Source: Anaerobaca lacustris (lineage in GTDB: Bacteria; Planctomycetota; Phycisphaerae; Sedimentisphaerales; Anaerobacaceae). Taken from it: 64,000 bases of DNA. Shown here one piece after another: positions 34,776 to 50,987 of the stretch. A program made the translations under genes and the position numbers. The number at the start of each line of letters is the position of its first letter. Positions within the stretch are counted from its first letter, which is position 1. The notes under the pieces were generated by a model. The model did no database searches, was not told the origin of the DNA, and was given only the letters and a program-made list of their open reading frames with translations. Where the stretch lies: contig NZ_JASCXX010000025.1 of NCBI RefSeq assembly GCF_030012215.1, positions 1-64,000 of the forward strand. Reading direction: 5' to 3'.

Positions 34776-37721
34776 TTAGAAGGGTTTATGCAGCGGCATG
34801 GTTCTTCCAGCCAGCCATGCGATTTCTCCATCGGACAGCGCTTCGTTGTAGACGCGCACCTCATCGACGGCGCCGGGGAAGAAGACTTCATTGTCCTGGC
34901 GCTTGCCCACGTGGAACGGGCCCGGCGTGTTGACGTTGTCCACGTCGTCGCTGCCGACCAGCGCCCCGTCGCCATACCACTTCACGGTCGTGCCGTCAAA
35001 CGAGGCCGCCAGGTGGTGCCATTCCAGATCGATCGGGAGGATATTGAACTCCCAGCCGTGACGGTGCAGGCCGTAATAACCCAAGGTCGCGCTGGTGCCG
35101 CTGGTACCGACGGCTTCGATGTCGAAGTGTTGCCCGTTCGTACCCGGTCCGGTAAAGCCGAAGACGTTGGCCCAAGCTGTGATCGTGGTCGTGTCGGCCT
35201 TGGCCCAGCCGGAGATCGTCCTCGGCGCAGCGCCGCTGATTCCGACGCTGCTGACGGTGACATACGTTCGGACGCCGTCCAGCGCGATGGCCTGGCCGTC
35301 CACACCAGCGACATACGTCGGGTTGCCCTGTACCGTTCCGTGGAAGGCGTTGCCCGAGCTGTCGTTTGCGTTGCCGTCAAAGGCGTAGCGAGCGACCAGA
35401 CTGGCCGTGCCCGGCTCGGTCGGCGTAGTGAACTCGGGCGCCTGCGGATAGAGCCGGATATCATCGATGTAGATGACTCCCGATGCACCGGCGCCCTCGA
35501 CGCCGATCGTCAACTTTGTGACGCCGCTCACGCTACCGCCGACCGCTGACAGATCGATGTTCCACGGCTGCCATGCCCCTCTCTTGATGTCGGAGGCATC
35601 GCCGTCATAGGCGACCTTGGTGTTGTTGATCTTCAGGTACAACTGCCCGGTGTTGTCCGGATCGCCGTAGAAGTACAGCGACAGGGTCCGGATGCCGCTG
35701 GCGGTCCAGTTCTGAGCCGCGAAGGTCCGCTCGGCCTCCGCAACGGCCGTCCCACCGGTGTTCTCATAGAACAGCGGCATCGACTGGCGACCGCTGCGGA
35801 CGATCGTTTGCTCGGCAAACGGTGCAGTCATGTTGCCGACCGTCGAACCGGTTCCGTTGACCCAGCCATCGATCCACGTGTCGAAGATGGCTTCGCCGGC
35901 CTCGATGTCGTCGCCGTAGCTCTCGAAGTCCTCGACCACCACGAACGCGCGGGTCGCGAAGCTCCAGAGCGTCCCTTCCCATGTGGTGATGGCCTCGACC
36001 TCATTGACCTCGGCCACCTTCCAGTAGTAGGTGGTCGCCAGGTCGAGCGCGCCCGGTGCGATGCTGGCCTGTGCGACCGTGCCCAGCAGGTCCAGTGCCT
36101 CGGCGTCGGTGCCGAAGTACACCTCATGCGAACCCGCTTCGCGTCCGGCGCGCCAGCTCAGGACGGCGTCGGTATTGACGTTGGTGGCCCCATCGGCCGG
36201 CTGCGGCTCTCGTGCCTGGACGGGGATGTAGGTGAAGCGGACTTCGCTGAGCCCGTACTGGCCCATCATGCCGAAGGCGCTGTTGACGGTGAGCTTGACG
36301 GCTTTGACCGCAAGCCCGTCGAAATCGATGGTCGAGTTGTAGACGTAGCCCGCTCTGGCCGTGGCCTGTTCCAGGTCGAAATCGCCCAAGGCGGTCCACG
36401 TTTCGCCGTCGGCGGAGTACTCGACGGTGACGTTCTTCAGTCCGAAGCCGAGCAGCTTTTCGAACTGGACGTTGTAGTTCCAGACATGGAGTTGATAGAG
36501 CTTGTAGGCCGCGTCGAACTCGTACTGGATGTACAGGGCCGATCCGTCCGCCGGAGGCCGGGCCGTCCACATGTCGAACGCCTCGACGGAGTGCCCGTCG
36601 GCGGCGTCAAGACCGGAACCGTTGACCGTGTTCTCCGGGCCGGACATCGCGTCCGAATCGCCATTGCTCGTAGCGATGACGTTCGCGACGGCATAGGCGA
36701 ACGGTTCGACCTCGAAGCTCCAGATCAGGCCCTTGAAGATCGTTCCGCCTGCCTCGACCTCATCGACGCGCCAGTAATAGGTCTGGCTGAATTCAAGACG
36801 TCCCGGATTGTATGTCAGGGCCGCCTGGCCCTGGCTGGCCAGCACGCCCATCGGATTGGCGCGGGTGGCCGCATTGACGTCCTCGAAACTCGTCCCGAAG
36901 TAGACGTCGTGCGTTGCGGCCGATTCACCCGCCGCCCAGCTCAAGATCGTGTCGCGCGGCACGTCGGTCGCGTCTTCGGCCGGCACAGGGTTGCTGGCCA
37001 GCGCCGGATCGAACAGGCCGCCCATGATCGCCAGGATCTCGGCTTCGGTCAGGGCCCGGCTGAAGAAGCAGACGTCGTCCAGCGAACCGCCGCTCATCCG
37101 ACGCGCTACCCAGTCGGCATTGCCGTCGCCGCCGAGATACGTCAATCCGTCCCAGGCAATGGTTCCGTGGGCGACATTGTTGACAGCAGACGCCTCGCCG
37201 TTGAGATAGAACGTTGCCTTGTCGGGCTCGACCGTCACCGCGCAGTGGGCCCACTCATTGAGCGGATGCAGGACGTTGCCGCGGAAGCTCCAGGTGTTGG
37301 AGGCGTCGGCCCAGTGATAGGCCAACTGCCGGTCGGCCAGCAGGTTGAAGCCGGAGGCGGGACCGGGATTGCGGTGCATGATGATCGACGCCCATTCGGG
37401 CTGTGCCGCGGGGGCAAACAGCCAGCCGGCCATGGTGGCCTGACTCAGCGACAGGCCCATCGGCTGGATCTCGACCAGCGTCGGCCCGACCAGCGTAATG
37501 GCGTTGCCGTAGACGCCCGTCGTCCAGGCCGGACTGCCGTTGACGAACTCGCCGTCGTTGCCGTTGGGCGACGAATCGGCCACGATGCTGCCGGCGCCCT
37601 CGTCACAGGTCCACCAGCCGATGATGGCCGGGTCGCTGAGGGGGTTGAACGCTCCGGCGGTGCCCTGCATCAGGGCCAACAGTACGATCAGGAATGCGAA
37701 ACAAGTGCATCGCTTCCACAT
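34776..37721 (-). CDS. Large secreted LamG/discoidin/fibronectin-like surface protein
   Basis: 981 residues; AAGGAG precedes the ATG at 37721. Signal peptide MWKRCTCFAFLIVLLALM, cut near AGA-F. Domains in order: LamG/concanavalin-like lectin (about 30-235; WTCDEGAGSIVADSSPNGND, SGGSLDDVCFFSRALTEAE), a fibronectin-III-like unit (about 243-345; NPVPAEDATDVPRDTILSW, THDVYFGTS, YYWRVDEV), a discoidin (F5/8 C-like) domain (about 350-505), a second Fn3-like unit (PQPADGATNVNTDAVLSW, HEVYFGTD), a jelly-roll module beginning FVVVEDFESYGDDI, and a C-terminal LamG domain (YAFDGNANDSSGNAFHG, GAVDEVRVYNEALSDGEI). The arrangement binds carbohydrate, probably at the cell surface. No PEP-CTERM or anchor signal is seen. 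Convergent with the TIM-barrel pair. Confidence 0.88.
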   Translation of the reverse strand: MWKRCTCFAFLIVLLALMQGTAGAFNPLSDPAIIGWWTCDEGAGSIVADSSPNGNDGEFVNGSPAWTTGVYGNAITLVGPTLVEIQPMGLSLSQATMAGWLFAPAAQPEWASIIMHRNPGPASGFNLLADRQLAYHWADASNTWSFRGNVLHPLNEWAHCAVTVEPDKATFYLNGEASAVNNVAHGTIAWDGLTYLGGDGNADWVARRMSGGSLDDVCFFSRALTEAEILAIMGGLFDPALASNPVPAEDATDVPRDTILSWAAGESAATHDVYFGTSFEDVNAATRANPMGVLASQGQAALTYNPGRLEFSQTYYWRVDEVEAGGTIFKGLIWSFEVEPFAYAVANVIATSNGDSDAMSGPENTVNGSGLDAADGHSVEAFDMWTARPPADGSALYIQYEFDAAYKLYQLHVWNYNVQFEKLLGFGLKNVTVEYSADGETWTALGDFDLEQATARAGYVYNSTIDFDGLAVKAVKLTVNSAFGMMGQYGLSEVRFTYIPVQAREPQPADGATNVNTDAVLSWRAGREAGSHEVYFGTDAEALDLLGTVAQASIAPGALDLATTYYWKVAEVNEVEAITTWEGTLWSFATRAFVVVEDFESYGDDIEAGEAIFDTWIDGWVNGTGSTVGNMTAPFAEQTIVRSGRQSMPLFYENTGGTAVAEAERTFAAQNWTASGIRTLSLYFYGDPDNTGQLYLKINNTKVAYDGDASDIKRGAWQPWNIDLSAVGGSVSGVTKLTIGVEGAGASGVIYIDDIRLYPQAPEFTTPTEPGTASLVARYAFDGNANDSSGNAFHGTVQGNPTYVAGVDGQAIALDGVRTYVTVSSVGISGAAPRTISGWAKADTTTITAWANVFGFTGPGTNGQHFDIEAVGTSGTSATLGYYGLHRHGWEFNILPIDLEWHHLAASFDGTTVKWYGDGALVGSDDVDNVNTPGPFHVGKRQDNEVFFPGAVDEVRVYNEALSDGEIAWLAGRTMPLHKPF

Positions 37722-38214: not shown

Positions 38215-40146
38215 CTACACCAGGCCCACCGACCCGAAGGCGAAATAGAAGAAGTAGCTGGTGCCGAACTCGCGGATCAGCAGGTTGAATGTCGCCTGCT
38301 GGGTCTGGGGCTGCATCGAACCTCGGATTTGCACGAACCGTTGGTATCTCTGGATGGTTCCAGGGCTTATCTTGATGCGTCCCAGGTCGGGCTTCTGCCT
38401 CTGGGCCCCGTAGTGGATCAGGACGGCCTCTTCATACAGGGTGGGGGTTGTGTGGTAGCCCAACTCGTCGAGGCGGTGCAGATTCTCGACGATCTTGTCG
38501 ACTTTGCCGGTCAGCAGATAGCACGCCATGAGGTACTCGAAGGCCATCTTATTGCGCGGGTTCCGCTCCAGCAGCCTGGCCAGGGTCCGTTCGAGGGGCT
38601 CGGCGGCGGCCACCGCCAGCGGGTCGTCCGGCATGCAGGAGCGGATTCGCTCGATGTAGGCGGCCCGATCGGGCGACAGGCCGTGGTCCAGATCGTGCAA
38701 CCATGATTGAGCGGTCTCCTGGCGGATCGGGTCCCGCTTTAGTGCGTTCAGATAGATCCGCGCCGTGTCGGGCTGGCCCTTGACGAGGCTGACCTGCCCC
38801 AACGTCTCCAGGGCGACGCCGAGATGGTCCTTGGTTGCCAGCAGCTCCGAGGCCAGCTTCTGGGCCAGGTTGGCGTGGCCGAGCTCCAGAAAGGCGTTGC
38901 TGAGCTTGTACAGGGCCAGATCGGACTCCCGTTGCTCGTGCGTAATCAGAAGAGCGTGTGGGTTCAGGGGGAACGTGAACATGTCGTAGGGGAGCCGGCC
39001 GGTGTGATAGAGGGCCCGAAGGATATCGTGATTGACGAAGACGTTGATCCTGCCTTTGGGCAGCCGGCGGCCGAGCGCCAGGACGTCGTCCCATCGCTTC
39101 TCGCACGCGTAGTAGTTCGACAGGACATAGGGCTTGCGCAGCTCGTCACGGTCGAAATACAGCCCGAGGGCCATCAAGACGATCGGTGCGGCGGCCAGGG
39201 CCGGCTTGAAGAGGGCTGCCGGGAACGACCTCTTGTGTCGTGAAGCACCGTGCTTGTCGCGTCTCTTGGTCTTCTTCGAACGGCCGGCGGACTTCTGCCT
39301 TCTCCAGGCGACCAGGCGGCTGCCGACAAAGGTCAGCAGCACGGCCAGAGGCGCCAGCCCGTACAGACAGTAGATCAGGACCCTCAGGAATGGTCCGGCA
39401 CCGGTGACGACCGATGGGACGAATGGCGTCAGGATTGAGAACGCCCGGCGCGGGGCGATCAGGAACACGTACTGGGCGGGGACCCAGACCACTGCGACGC
39501 TCGTGGGCGGGATGAGAATGGCCAGCGTCCAATTCCTGCGAAGGAAGATTGCATGGACCGCAGCCGTTGTCGCGAACACCAGCAACGCCCCCGACCCGCC
39601 CATCCAGAAGGCGAAGGCAGCCATCGGAACACAGGTCGCGATGCGAACCCAGGTGCGGCGAAATGCGAGTTTCTCGAAGGCAAGGGCCAGGACGAGTCCC
39701 AGCCAGACGGCCAGGGCGGCCGGCAGGGGATGTTTGTAGTGGCTGTAGATCAGGAAGAAGGCAACCGCCGGCAGGGCGGTCAGCGAGCCGGTGTTTGCGG
39801 CACCGGCAAGGGCCAGATGCCGCCGGAGCGATTCGCCGATCCCCAAGGCCACCAGTATGATGATCAGGGCCCCCAGGCATGCGTGGTAGTATCCCTGCGA
39901 CAGCAGCCCGGCCACATAAAGAACACCGCCGCCCGGCACAGCCAGGCGGTTCAGCAGAAAGGCCCGGCCCGTGGCGAACAGCGGGGCATCCGGGAGGATC
40001 GTTCCGAAGCAGTGGTAGATCAGGTGGGGCTCGACAACCAGCCATAGGTACAGGAAGCACAGCACGAAGAACAGCAGGTTCTGCGGCAGCCATTGGGCTC
40101 TGAGCGTCATGCCCTTGCTTGTCCGGGCTTGTGTGGTTTCCGCCAT
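38215..40146 (-). CDS. Polytopic membrane protein with C-terminal TPR-like helices (DUF6057-like)
   Basis: 643 residues. About ten membrane helices occupy residues 20-330 (e.g. LLFFVLCFLYLWLVV, LGALIIILVALGIG, LPAVAFFLIYSHY, GLAPLAVLLTFVG, APIVLMALGLYF), broken by a basic loop (RRQKSAGRSKKTKRRDKHGASRHKR). From about 345 the protein is soluble and helical with TPR-like repeats: YACEKRWDDVLALGRRL, DLALYKLSNAFLELGHANLAQKLA, LGQVSLVKGQPDTARIYL, NKMAFEYLMACYLLTGKVDKIV. The layout recalls the DUF6057 family of Bacteroidetes; I am not certain of that label. It begins six bases after the CxxCH beta-propeller gene, so they form a two-gene operon and probably one envelope complex. Function unknown. Confidence 0.65.
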   Translation of the reverse strand: MAETTQARTSKGMTLRAQWLPQNLLFFVLCFLYLWLVVEPHLIYHCFGTILPDAPLFATGRAFLLNRLAVPGGGVLYVAGLLSQGYYHACLGALIIILVALGIGESLRRHLALAGAANTGSLTALPAVAFFLIYSHYKHPLPAALAVWLGLVLALAFEKLAFRRTWVRIATCVPMAAFAFWMGGSGALLVFATTAAVHAIFLRRNWTLAILIPPTSVAVVWVPAQYVFLIAPRRAFSILTPFVPSVVTGAGPFLRVLIYCLYGLAPLAVLLTFVGSRLVAWRRQKSAGRSKKTKRRDKHGASRHKRSFPAALFKPALAAAPIVLMALGLYFDRDELRKPYVLSNYYACEKRWDDVLALGRRLPKGRINVFVNHDILRALYHTGRLPYDMFTFPLNPHALLITHEQRESDLALYKLSNAFLELGHANLAQKLASELLATKDHLGVALETLGQVSLVKGQPDTARIYLNALKRDPIRQETAQSWLHDLDHGLSPDRAAYIERIRSCMPDDPLAVAAAEPLERTLARLLERNPRNKMAFEYLMACYLLTGKVDKIVENLHRLDELGYHTTPTLYEEAVLIHYGAQRQKPDLGRIKISPGTIQRYQRFVQIRGSMQPQTQQATFNLLIREFGTSYFFYFAFGSVGLV

Positions 40147-40152
40147 CGCGGG

Positions 40153-41706
40153 CTACTCCCGTTCCTGCCAGGGATCGGACGGCACTGTCTTCGGGCTGGC
40201 CCCTGTGATGGGGATGTCGGTCGCGATGGACGGCCCGGCGCGGGCCGCCTGGGCGAGCCGCCACTTCCTTACGTTGACCGGTCCGGTGACCAGTTCCGGG
40301 GTACTGTACGTCTCAAGGAGCGAATCGTAGGTGGTCGGGTCTTTCTGAGGCACGACGAAGGGTTTGTGCGCCGTCCCGGCCTCGTCGATGTAGCTCAGAT
40401 ACGTCCGGGTGAACAGGCCGCCCTGACGCTTGCTGCTGAAGGCGATCCAGCGGCTGTTGCTCGACCAACTGTGCCACGATTCCGAGAACTCGCTGTTGAT
40501 CGCCAGCCTGCGGTACTGTCGGGTGGCCAAGTCCATGATGTAGAGGTCGCTGCTGGGCTGATAGACGGGGAAGCAGCCGTAGTCGCACATGCAGAACAGC
40601 AGGAACCGCCCGTCCGGCGAGACCCTGGGCAACAGGATGCTCAGGCCCGTCTCCTGGGCCGATAGGATGGTCTCCGCCTGGCCCCATTGGCCCGTCTCGA
40701 TGTCGTAGCCGATACGCAGCAGATCGTATTTGAGATCCTCGTAGTTGTCGGGCGGCACCTTGTTGCGGTCCTCCCACAGGATCGGGGCGCTGCAATAGTA
40801 GAGGAACTTGCCGTCGGGTGACCACGCGGGATAGGTTTCGAGCCGGTCTTTGTCGGCCAGTTCGGGCGGAGAGGTCGCCGTGCGGCTTTCAACGTCGTAA
40901 CAGACCAGCGCCGAGTCCAGATCGGCCACATCCCGCACCTCCATCGCCCCGGCGCGGAAAAACTGGATGACCTTGTTGATCGAATACACGGCGACACGAC
41001 CGCTGGGGTGCCACGCCGTGTAGCCCCATTTGGCGCCGACCTTCTCGACCTGCCCGTCCTGGGCCAGCAGCGTGTGGCTGCCGTATGTGGCGCTGCGCAG
41101 GCTGATGGACAGGGTCTCGGGGTCGTTGCCGGCGAAGCTGTGACAGTTCAGGCACCCTTCGCCGAACGATCGGCCATGCAGGACGACCGAGGTATCGAAG
41201 CCGGCGAGGTTCCGCTGGTAGATGCCGATGTCCTTCCACCAGTTGTAGAGTGGCTTCATGAGCCGGAATACCAGGGTCCCGTCGATGTCTTCCTTGGCGA
41301 TGGTGTTGGTGACGGTCTGAAAACGCCGCCATTGGCGGTCCTGGCCCTGGACGTAAATGTCGAAATGCAGGTCACGACCCCGGTTGGCGTCCAGCAGCTT
41401 GCGCCATGGACGAGCAGAGAGGCGCATCTGCCCCGTCTTGCCGAATGCGGTGACCGGTACGCCGTGTTGCGAGTGGACCTTGAGGAAATACGCGCGGCCT
41501 TCCTCCCGGATCTGGAGATTCAGAGGGGCGATGTTGGCCGGGATGACGGTTCCCGAGTAGTCCGGGCTGATGTCGGGCTCGCGCGCGACCTCGCTGTATT
41601 GGTCCACGGCGCTGGGAGAGCAGGACGCCGGCCAGAGGGCTGTCGCGACGACGATGCAGCCAACGAAGGCCGTGACGACGAATCGTTTTCTCAACTGACT
41701 TGCCAC
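40153..41706 (-). CDS. Exported beta-propeller (PD40/TolB-like) protein with one CxxCH haem-binding motif
   Basis: 517 residues from GTG 41706 with AGTAGGA eight bases upstream. A signal sequence (FVVTAFVGCIVVATALWPA) may end at a lipidated Cys (ASC). An N-terminal beta domain of about 150 residues is followed by C185-L-N-C188-H189 in FGEGCLNCHSFAG, a single cytochrome-c haem site, and then TolB/PD40-type propeller blades: YTAWHPSGRVAVYSI, TYPAWSPDGKFLYYCS, LPRVSPDGRFLLFCM, SSDLYIMDLATRQYRRL, SWSSNSRWIAFSSKR. Proteins that fuse haem-c sites to such propellers sense or transfer electrons in the periplasm. It is cotranscribed with the polytopic membrane/TPR gene. The true partner reaction is unknown. 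Confidence 0.75.
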   Translation of the reverse strand: MASQLRKRFVVTAFVGCIVVATALWPASCSPSAVDQYSEVAREPDISPDYSGTVIPANIAPLNLQIREEGRAYFLKVHSQHGVPVTAFGKTGQMRLSARPWRKLLDANRGRDLHFDIYVQGQDRQWRRFQTVTNTIAKEDIDGTLVFRLMKPLYNWWKDIGIYQRNLAGFDTSVVLHGRSFGEGCLNCHSFAGNDPETLSISLRSATYGSHTLLAQDGQVEKVGAKWGYTAWHPSGRVAVYSINKVIQFFRAGAMEVRDVADLDSALVCYDVESRTATSPPELADKDRLETYPAWSPDGKFLYYCSAPILWEDRNKVPPDNYEDLKYDLLRIGYDIETGQWGQAETILSAQETGLSILLPRVSPDGRFLLFCMCDYGCFPVYQPSSDLYIMDLATRQYRRLAINSEFSESWHSWSSNSRWIAFSSKRQGGLFTRTYLSYIDEAGTAHKPFVVPQKDPTTYDSLLETYSTPELVTGPVNVRKWRLAQAARAGPSIATDIPITGASPKTVPSDPWQERE

Positions 41707-48966: not shown

Positions 48967-50283
48967 CTATGGACGAGGCAGCGCCTTTTCGAGTTCCGCC
49001 AGCACCTCGGCGCTGACGGTCTCGACGTGCAGACTGCCGAAGATCACCCGGTATTCCGTCTCGGAAACCTGCCATCGCATCAGGACCTGATCGGCGTCCT
49101 GAGGTGTTACGACGGCACCGTAGTAGGCAGGATGCTTCTGGTCTTGCGAGAGCGACATGTAGAACGAGCCGATCCCCATGACGGGCGCCAGGGTCTTCGT
49201 GAGTTCCTTGATACGCTCATCCATGTCCTCTTTCTCCGGCTGATGACCGTCGGCGACGCTTCGTTTGGCGAGGTCCTTCATCACCGACATGAGGGTCACC
49301 ATATCCAGTTTCTCCGGGTAGCGACCGCCCAACTCGGCAAACAGCCGCAGCCCCTGGATGGCGGTCTGTTCATTCATCGCCGGCATCTGAAGCGGTCCTC
49401 CGCCCAGAGTGGTATAATCATCCGGGATGACCGGCTCGAACTCGGAGGCATCCACGACCACGTCCCACCGGAAATCGTGAATAACGGTGTGCGAGAGTAT
49501 TTCAGCCGTCTGCGCGTCCATCTCAAAAAGGACCGGAAGCTGGGTCTTGACGTCGACCCAAATCTTGACGTCGACCTCGCCCATCATGCCCCCAAGATAG
49601 TTGGGATCGGTCGTCTGAAAGCCTTCGACCTCGACGCCATTGATGGTGGATCGGCCCAGGCCCGTATACTGACAATCGAGAATCTGGCGGACCATGGTCC
49701 TCGGGTCACGGTTCTCTTTCAGTCGCTCTTCGAACGCCGCGTCGTCGAGGTCGATCTGCATGTACTTCTTCTGTCCCGGCATGAGGGTGACCGCCTTCTT
49801 CTGCCGGGGCAGCATGTACGTTTCCTGCAGCATCGGCTCGGCGCCGTCGGGACCGGGGACTCTCGTGTCCATCTCCATCGTCATTTTCATCCCCAGTTCC
49901 TGCGATATCAAGGCCGTGGCTCGTGCCTCATGCTCCACGGGTGTGTCGCCAACGCTCGGGCCCGTCGTCAGGATGCTCATCTGGTACATATATGCGTTGA
50001 CCTGCTGGAGGCGGGTCAGGACGTCGGCTAAGGCGACGCTGGATTGCGTGCCCGTCCACAGGAGCAGGCCCATGACGCTCGCGATGACAACGGCGGCTGC
50101 GATAGCGAGTTTGGCGAATGGACTCTTCATGATCGATCTCCCTTTTACAGTTACAGTCTCTGGTTTCTTTGCGTGTTCCTGCTGGGCCCCGAGCATGTCC
50201 CGAAAGACCCGCTCATCGGCCTGCGGCTGGATACCCAGCCTGGCTTCTCGAAACAACTTCCTTATGTGGTCTGCGGATCGCAT
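48967..50283 (-). CDS. Membrane-anchored LolA/RseB-like protein, probable anti-sigma partner
   Basis: 438 residues; GAGG eight bases upstream, start inside the end of the sigma gene (22-base overlap). A cytoplasmic N-terminus of about 55 residues (MRSADHIRKLFREAR) is followed by one membrane helix (about 58-77) and a large exported part with strands like LolA/RseB lipid-binding domains: LTRLQQVNAYMYQM, MKMTMEMDTRVPGP, GLGRSTINGVEVEGFQTT, VDVKIWVDVKTQLPVLFEMD, HDFRWDVVVDASEFEPVIPDDY. The position right after an ECF sigma gene and the single membrane segment suggest an anti-sigma factor that senses the envelope. No ASD zinc motif is visible in the short N-terminus, so this is inference. Confidence 0.65.
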   Translation of the reverse strand: MRSADHIRKLFREARLGIQPQADERVFRDMLGAQQEHAKKPETVTVKGRSIMKSPFAKLAIAAAVVIASVMGLLLWTGTQSSVALADVLTRLQQVNAYMYQMSILTTGPSVGDTPVEHEARATALISQELGMKMTMEMDTRVPGPDGAEPMLQETYMLPRQKKAVTLMPGQKKYMQIDLDDAAFEERLKENRDPRTMVRQILDCQYTGLGRSTINGVEVEGFQTTDPNYLGGMMGEVDVKIWVDVKTQLPVLFEMDAQTAEILSHTVIHDFRWDVVVDASEFEPVIPDDYTTLGGGPLQMPAMNEQTAIQGLRLFAELGGRYPEKLDMVTLMSVMKDLAKRSVADGHQPEKEDMDERIKELTKTLAPVMGIGSFYMSLSQDQKHPAYYGAVVTPQDADQVLMRWQVSETEYRVIFGSLHVETVSAEVLAELEKALPRP

Positions 50284-50825
50284 CGTTGTACCTCACTCTC
50301 AAGCAGAGACCGCAGTCGTTCCATGGCGTAGCGATATCGGCCCTTGGCGGTGTTCAGCGGCACGCGCTGCACCGCCGCGATCTGGCGAAAGCTCATGTCC
50401 ATCTCCATGCGAAGGCTGACCGCTTCGCGTTGCTCGTAAGGCAACTGCTGCATCGCCTCGGCCAGCAGGGCGAGTTGTTCGCTGAGAATGGCCCACTGCG
50501 CGGGCCCCGGGCCACCCGACGCAGGCAGCGATGCCCCTTCCAGGCTGATCCCCCCATGTCGGCGGTTGTTTCGCCTGTGGTTGCGGACGCGATTGACCAC
50601 GCTCGTCGTCAGATAGCTGCGGAGGCTGCCGGTCAGCCTGATCCGCTCGGCCGAGCCGGCGAACGACACGAAGACGTCGTGCACGATGTCCTCGGCGGCG
50701 TTGCCGTCGCCCAGCAGCACGGTGGCCAGCTTGAGCATCTGGACCTTGTACTTGTCATAGATCCGGCGCAGGGCCTGCGGCGAGCCTCTCTTGAACCGGA
50801 GAATCAACAGTCTTTCCTCGACCAT
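50262..50825 (-). CDS. ECF-type RNA polymerase sigma factor
   Basis: 187 residues from ATG 50825; GTG 50834 is an alternative. Region 2: LRRIYDKYKVQMLKLATVLLG, AEDIVHDVFVSFAG, LRSYLTTSVVNRVRNHRR. Region 4: QLPYEQREAVSLRMEMDMSFRQIAAVQ (shortened) then PLNTAKGRYRYAMERLRSLL, a helix-turn-helix that reads the -35 box. It should direct RNA polymerase to envelope- or stress-response promoters under control of the overlapping LolA-like membrane protein. Target promoters cannot be identified here. Confidence 0.9.
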   Translation of the reverse strand: MVEERLLILRFKRGSPQALRRIYDKYKVQMLKLATVLLGDGNAAEDIVHDVFVSFAGSAERIRLTGSLRSYLTTSVVNRVRNHRRNNRRHGGISLEGASLPASGGPGPAQWAILSEQLALLAEAMQQLPYEQREAVSLRMEMDMSFRQIAAVQRVPLNTAKGRYRYAMERLRSLLESEVQRCDPQTT

Positions 50826-50987
50826 CCTGCGCACCTGACTGAAACGCGATCGCTGTTCGGCCTATTACACACCAACGCACTGTGATTGGGTATGGCGATC
50901 TTCCGGCGAACTGTCCTTTTCTCACAGGCGGTCACTGGAAGATTGGGCGGCGGATGTTACAATCGCCGACTCTGGAGCCCAATAGAG

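Follow-up and report, generated by a model that had tools for sequence, protein, structure and literature searches.

Within a 64,000-nucleotide stretch of the Anaerobaca lacustris genome (NCBI RefSeq assembly GCF_030012215.1, contig NZ_JASCXX010000025.1, positions 1–64,000; hereafter the window), two adjacent minus-strand genes encode a TolB-fold propeller protein bearing a single CxxCH motif and a polytopic membrane protein of the Pfam family DUF6057 (PF19529). The initial annotation of this DNA had singled out the two genes as an envelope module, an observation that our analysis confirmed; the pair is a real and widespread two-gene envelope module, undescribed in the literature searched. In the open literature library that we searched, neither DUF6057 nor PF19529 was named by any paper, and searches with combined terms yielded nothing recognised as this pair among the matches listed. 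The explanation that we favour, with somewhat more confidence than doubt, is a two-protein redox module at the periplasmic face of the inner membrane, in which a membrane-tethered mono-haem propeller would dock on the DUF6057 solenoid for electron transfer or sensing.

The propeller gene (40153..41706, minus strand) starts with GTG and encodes 517 residues, the DUF6057 gene (38215..40146, minus strand) encodes 643 residues, and the six bases at 40147–40152 separate them; reading frames, strand and spacing were thus as first annotated. The propeller product is organized as a predicted N-terminal helix (residues 2–28), an N-terminal beta domain (approximately residues 46–150) and a six-bladed propeller. 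The TolB-like character claimed for it at the outset is borne out by PD40 repeats in a Pfam scan (E 3.5e-17) and by the AlphaFold2 model (alignment of 41 sequences, mean predicted local distance difference test (pLDDT) 88.5, built without cofactor), for which TolB is the best fold match (Z 26.0, 273 residues, root mean square deviation 3.4); the predicted helix is in keeping with the export claimed. The N terminus holds a membrane anchor or lipobox, and because a lipobox-like cysteine is present in some propeller relatives and absent from others, the protein could be of either the lipoprotein or the signal-anchored type. As proposed, the open reading frame (ORF) contains one haem-c-type motif (C185, C188, H189), the CLNCH at residues 185–189, whose codons, computed from the ORF start at 41706, lie at 41140..41154 (minus strand). 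The partner matches DUF6057 with 267 bits against a cut-off of 29.8 (E 5.7e-79, model positions 10–568 of 569); the pair had been described as belonging to no named system, and the partner does carry a family name, for which the Pfam entry gives no function.

Conservation of the motif is close to complete. The 131 propeller matches in our loci reduced, upon removal of duplicates, to 81 representatives, 79 of which carry CxxCH; the two exceptions are fragments of 178 and 98 residues. Stretches added later contributed more CxxCH-bearing propellers and two CxxCH-free pieces at contig edges (L134, 338 residues; L142, 130 residues), neither of which spans the site by its match range. The motif is also present in all of six additional propellers, including the five most divergent that we saw, and the loss of CxxCH from close homologues, an outcome that the initial annotation had set against its own reading, was not observed. 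In a 65-sequence alignment C185, C188 and H189 are 100% conserved, H233 97% and H412 95%; both CxxCH and H412 are present in all seven Bacteroidota copies. Mean column identity is higher for the propeller (56%, 41 sequences) than for DUF6057 (37%, 37 sequences). At three loci (L027, L032, L033) the pair is followed by longer, more distant CxxCH propeller proteins, five across the three; C-terminal TPR repeats were present in the same chain in the three of these that were scanned, and all five retain CxxCH and the ‘SWHS’ histidine equivalent to H412. That single-chain propeller-TPR proteins keep both features suggests a natural association of propeller with solenoid, and some importance of H412. 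Retained in Bacteroidota and in these distant proteins, H412 is also the best guess at a second haem ligand.

The pairing of the two genes holds when approached from either side. Searching with only the propeller gave 44 loci, and a DUF6057 match is present in 38 of them; of the other six, four (L008, L012, L018, L040) are truncated where the contig ends, and two (L031, L041) have none in the stretch. For the converse count we excluded beforehand the propeller-found loci (L001–L044), the short stretches (L045–L093 and L134–L170) and L103, which is the same place as L178. In the wider stretches that remained there were 58 DUF6057 copies or pieces. For 46 of these a propeller lies on the same strand no more than 400 bp away, and another four face an opposite-strand propeller, two closely and two with three arylsulfotransferase-domain genes between. 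Many of the 58 copies come from genomes or records first reached via the propeller; among genomes reached via DUF6057 alone, our own excluded, 15 of 20 are paired (L104–L106, L171–L185). A lack of conserved pairing elsewhere, named initially as grounds for abandoning the module, was not what we encountered, and the recurrence in distant phyla on which its standing as a real module had been made to depend was found, in Planctomycetota, Lentisphaerae/Kiritimatiellales and Bacteroidota. Records of Parabacteroides, Phocaeicola and Bacteroides contain the same pair, with propeller identities of 33–38%. The propeller gene comes first in the subfamily of the window and DUF6057 comes first elsewhere, the gene ends often overlapping. 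The genome of the window encodes four DUF6057 proteins and four propellers. The pair is sparse: of 294 Planctomycetota genomes, our own included, 5 encode DUF6057 above the cut-off, as do 8 of the 288 genomes in the phylum to which a Kiritimatiellales record belongs, the genome of that record included; on viral contigs no relative was found. Distances between paired proteins correlate with r 0.84 (68 pairs, some of them tandem neighbours, with no correction for shared ancestry), a value reached in none of 2000 permutations.

The strongest argument for a haem site at CxxCH is the company that the pair keeps. CcsA and ResB are parts of System II cytochrome c maturation (CcsBA), and matches to CcsA (PF01578) and ResB, the latter partial, occur in all 16 pair genomes, our own included. 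Within one Planctomycetota family of nine genomes, four possess DUF6057 and the propeller and five possess neither; CcsA is present in three of the four pair-bearing and none of the five pair-lacking genomes. On the Verrucomicrobiota side, CcsA was detected in all eight DUF6057-bearing genomes sampled, relative to 13 of 20 others. Pooled without double counting, CcsA is present in 25 of 26 genomes with DUF6057, compared with 13 of 25 without it (Fisher p 3e-4, controls unmatched for relatedness). The association extends to direct linkage in two genera of that Planctomycetota family (G284 and G353), where the sole CcsA match of the genome stands immediately upstream of DUF6057-propeller; in G284, the one of the two searched for ResB, CcsA is in turn preceded by a ResB gene. 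From its N-terminal helix the CxxCH protein is predicted to be exported, and matches to the maturation genes occur in its own genome and 15 others. A covalent haem on the propeller CxxCH is likely from these genomic patterns, and the propeller would probably represent an architecturally unusual c-type cytochrome. For the single haem-c site proposed at the outset, motif invariance and the co-occurrence and linkage of cytochrome c maturation genes are in favour, and haem binding itself is what we infer from them.

Several observations weigh against this reading. In the model, built as it was without cofactor, CxxCH sits at the beginning of a predicted beta strand (residues 185–192); in cytochromes c the motif is usually on a helix. 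The pair is present in G359 with no CcsA match, in a genome 67% complete, and CcsA also occurs in the 13 of 25 DUF6057-free genomes counted above, in which relatedness was not matched. No electron donor or acceptor constantly adjoins the pair, whose neighbourhoods vary. The propellers of L031 and L041 are orphans in their stretches, and eight of the 58 DUF6057 copies lack a propeller in the sequence retrieved, G298 accounting for two of the eight. In favour of the pair, on the other hand, five of these eight are in genomes that each have exactly one propeller match elsewhere, nearly full length, the one in G385 containing an in-frame TGA; G300 also has a propeller match elsewhere. Against it, lastly, the membrane half of DUF6057 is weakly conserved, and the protein may therefore be only a scaffold.

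Hydropathy averaged over 37 relatives, the distribution of positive charges and a structural model (alignment of 37 sequences, pLDDT 85.5) together place about nine membrane helices in DUF6057, with the N terminus inside and the tail in the periplasm; the last inner loop holds on average 7.2 lysine or arginine residues versus 1.0 acidic residue in the 37 relatives. The initial annotation was right as to a polytopic protein and counted about ten helices, roughly one too many; the TPR tail that it described is a predicted periplasmic, TPR-like helical repeat (residues 337–643). A fold search, which covered this tail alone, gave VIA as its best match (Z 12.6 over 79 residues, borderline for helical repeats), and Pfam TPR matches in single DUF6057 members are weak. 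Sequence searches of the PDB with DUF6057 returned a designed protein (E 0.003) and two others (E 0.7–0.75), which we took as chance.

Taken together, a model for the pair emerges, in which we infer haem attachment and its place, the second ligand, the contact between propeller and tail, and the role. The propeller would be exported and held at the membrane by its N-terminal helix or a lipid, and CcsBA would attach one covalent c-type haem to the CxxCH. The haem would be placed where an inner strand of blade one ends, close to the opening of the propeller channel, with H412 as the proposed second ligand. DUF6057 would anchor the complex, its periplasmic TPR-like tail gripping the propeller; this contact is proposed by analogy with the TPRs fused to the same kind of propeller in the single-chain relatives. 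The haem could then pass electrons, or report redox state or a ligand, across the envelope; of the possible roles, electron transfer or sensing through the haem is the most likely. The “redox-linked sensor or assembly complex” of the initial annotation is compatible with this model; our findings do not separate sensing, electron transfer and assembly from one another.

An alternative that we regard as unlikely, and that survives best among those considered, is that CxxCH binds a metal such as zinc or copper, or forms a disulphide, within the channel of a propeller that is an enzyme or a binding protein, the pair being an envelope complex for substrate binding or catalysis. The predicted strand position of the motif would suit such a site, as would the other invariant or near-invariant polar residues of the propeller, E290, R361, H412 and C305. 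Thiocyanate dehydrogenase and oligogalacturonate lyase, both metal-site propellers, are among the Foldseek matches, far below TolB. Neither the co-occurrence of CcsA nor its direct linkage to the pair, joined by ResB in G284, is expected of a metal or disulphide site.

Improbable, to a further degree, is a pair that acts on glycans or envelope polymers, with DUF6057 as the active membrane part and the propeller in substrate recognition, as in polysaccharide utilisation loci. The Bacteroidota copies stand behind SusC/SusD-type genes in three of six records, directly in L097 and L098 and with two genes between in L096, and glycoside hydrolase, sulfatase or sulfotransferase genes lie near several copies. 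Glycan-type genes are, however, abundant in these genomes, the LamG family found next to the pair contributing by itself at least 100 matches in the genome of the window, and other copies adjoin housekeeping genes: a hisS-type gene in the window, a hisA-type one in L030, a trmD-type one in L104 and pfkA in L094. GT-C enzymes possess a catalytic acid just after the first helix, and an acidic residue is found at position 39 of DUF6057, just past its first helix, in 46 of 63 sequences (31 of 36 in the A2 set); the position is non-acidic in the remaining 17, which include at least six Bacteroidota copies, and because those copies lack the residue it left the odds of a glycan role unchanged. Comparison with Pfam gave no convincing transporter or glycosyltransferase family match, and a GT-C glycosyltransferase identity was set aside for want of a convincing sequence match, the fold search having been limited to the TPR tail. 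Finally, that the propeller is the TolB orthologue of a Tol-Pal-like system is scarcely credible: TolB is indeed the nearest fold (Z 26), but the score against the TIGR02800 equivalog model, 34.8 bits relative to a cut-off of 343.15, already disfavours it, as do the CxxCH, the recurrent DUF6057 partner and the four propellers in one genome.

The module has a putative promoter of its own, in line with the initial annotation. Upstream of the propeller gene there is one sigma-70-like site (41936–41908, minus strand), against 0.2 expected in shuffled sequences. Seven genomes share the synteny on the hisS side (the window, L001, L002, L006, L007, L018 and L043); the promoter hexamers are kept in six of them, namely the window and five relatives, and are weak in the sixth relative, L043. 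Between promoter and gene lies a terminator-like hairpin with a T-rich tail (41885–41837, minus strand), consisting of a 10-bp stem, invariant in the seven genomes, and a loop of 28–30 bases with an invariant, pyrimidine (C/U)-rich core of 25 bases; the flanks vary. As the stem never varies, covariation is not demonstrable from the alignment. The loop core occurs nowhere else in 1.8 Mb of loci, and Rfam gave no match at the hairpin at E up to 1; a match to a human long non-coding RNA (E 0.18) was dismissed as chance. The T tract and the propeller ORF are just some tens of bases apart in L006, L007 and L018, a distance that favours an attenuator; the end of a small RNA is possible. For the attenuator suggested in the initial annotation, the conserved stem, loop core and T-rich tail in seven genomes speak in favour, but an automatic terminator scan, restricted to loops of 3–8 bases, did not flag the hairpin, and folding of the entire 294-base leader is no more stable than that of shuffled sequences (z −1.1).

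Neighbour clustering and maps of 30 stretches revealed no constant third gene beside the pair. A LamG/discoidin-like protein, encoded in the window at 34776–37721 (minus strand), stands beside several copies and was rejected as a partner, given at least 100 matches to its family, several possibly per gene, in the 5.7 Mb genome of the window; the family is a very large paralogous expansion there. Downstream of DUF6057-propeller, five loci (L107:6136–7245, L036:7774–8886, L103:3666–4835, L171 and L175) possess a RidA/FkbO-type chorismatase-like gene, an identity tested with Pfam in L107 and L103. Three tandem arylsulfotransferase-domain proteins are encoded between the propeller and a divergent DUF6057 in L102 (1801–8679, by Pfam) and L128 (by likeness). 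The protein encoded at L031:3077–5986 contains two CxxCH motifs with HZS_alpha and discoidin domains, and its gene ends 8 bases before the orphan propeller ORF; likewise, an HZS_alpha protein is encoded 2.3 kb from the orphan DUF6057 of L115. With up to 38 such proteins per genome, the number of HZS_alpha matches in the genome of L031, these neighbours offer a weak hint only. At one pair locus, L043:6001–7351, just the first 169 residues of the propeller are present with pieces of DUF6057, in a decayed copy or an assembly error. Elsewhere in the window, a sigma-70-type factor gene (by Pfam) is followed by a 438-residue ORF without Pfam match (48967–50834, minus strand), perhaps encoding an anti-sigma factor.

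For DUF6057, a family often multicopy in gut Bacteroidota and in Planctomycetota–Verrucomicrobiota–Chlamydiota (PVC) bacteria, the pair supplies a partner and a probable cofactor, together with residues that can be tested. Were the haem confirmed, the envelopes of anaerobes such as Parabacteroides would contain an unsuspected mono-haem component, and the propeller fold would carry haem c without a cytochrome domain. More tentatively, and with the balance tilting towards doubt, we suggest that these proteins could represent a new architectural class of c-type cytochrome common to PVC bacteria and gut Bacteroidota, with haem on an inner blade strand of a TolB-type propeller at the channel mouth, no helical cytochrome c domain, and DUF6057, with its nine helices and periplasmic solenoid, as the dedicated and regular electron-transfer or haem-maturation partner.

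Comparison with known systems sets the pair apart from each. Like TolB of the Tol-Pal system, its best fold match, the window propeller joins an N-terminal domain to a six-bladed PD40 propeller, and sequence searches of the PDB returned weak TolB-type matches only; it differs in scoring far under the TIGR02800 equivalog cut-off and in its partner, and we know of no CxxCH in TolB. The best fold match outside TolB is the N-terminal six-bladed propeller of hydrazine synthase alpha (5C2V, Z 22.7, 279 residues), followed by a putative TolB (Z 20.8) and then other propellers from Z 19.7 downward. Hydrazine synthase alpha is likewise a c-type haem protein, with its haems in separate middle and C-terminal domains (PMC12758564). 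The window propeller differs in having no HZS_alpha (PF18582) match at E up to 1, and at E up to 5 none was listed for any of 41 relatives. Cytochrome cd1 nitrite reductase (1hzu) is also among the Foldseek matches (E 2e-7). It combines haem c and a propeller in one chain, as is proposed here; however, its haem c resides in a separate helical domain and its propeller is eight-bladed, whereas no separate helical haem domain was matched in the window propeller. As for the DUF6057 family, the window partner is a clear full-length member, and to a Pfam entry without function the present analysis adds a recurrent partner and a probable cofactor system.

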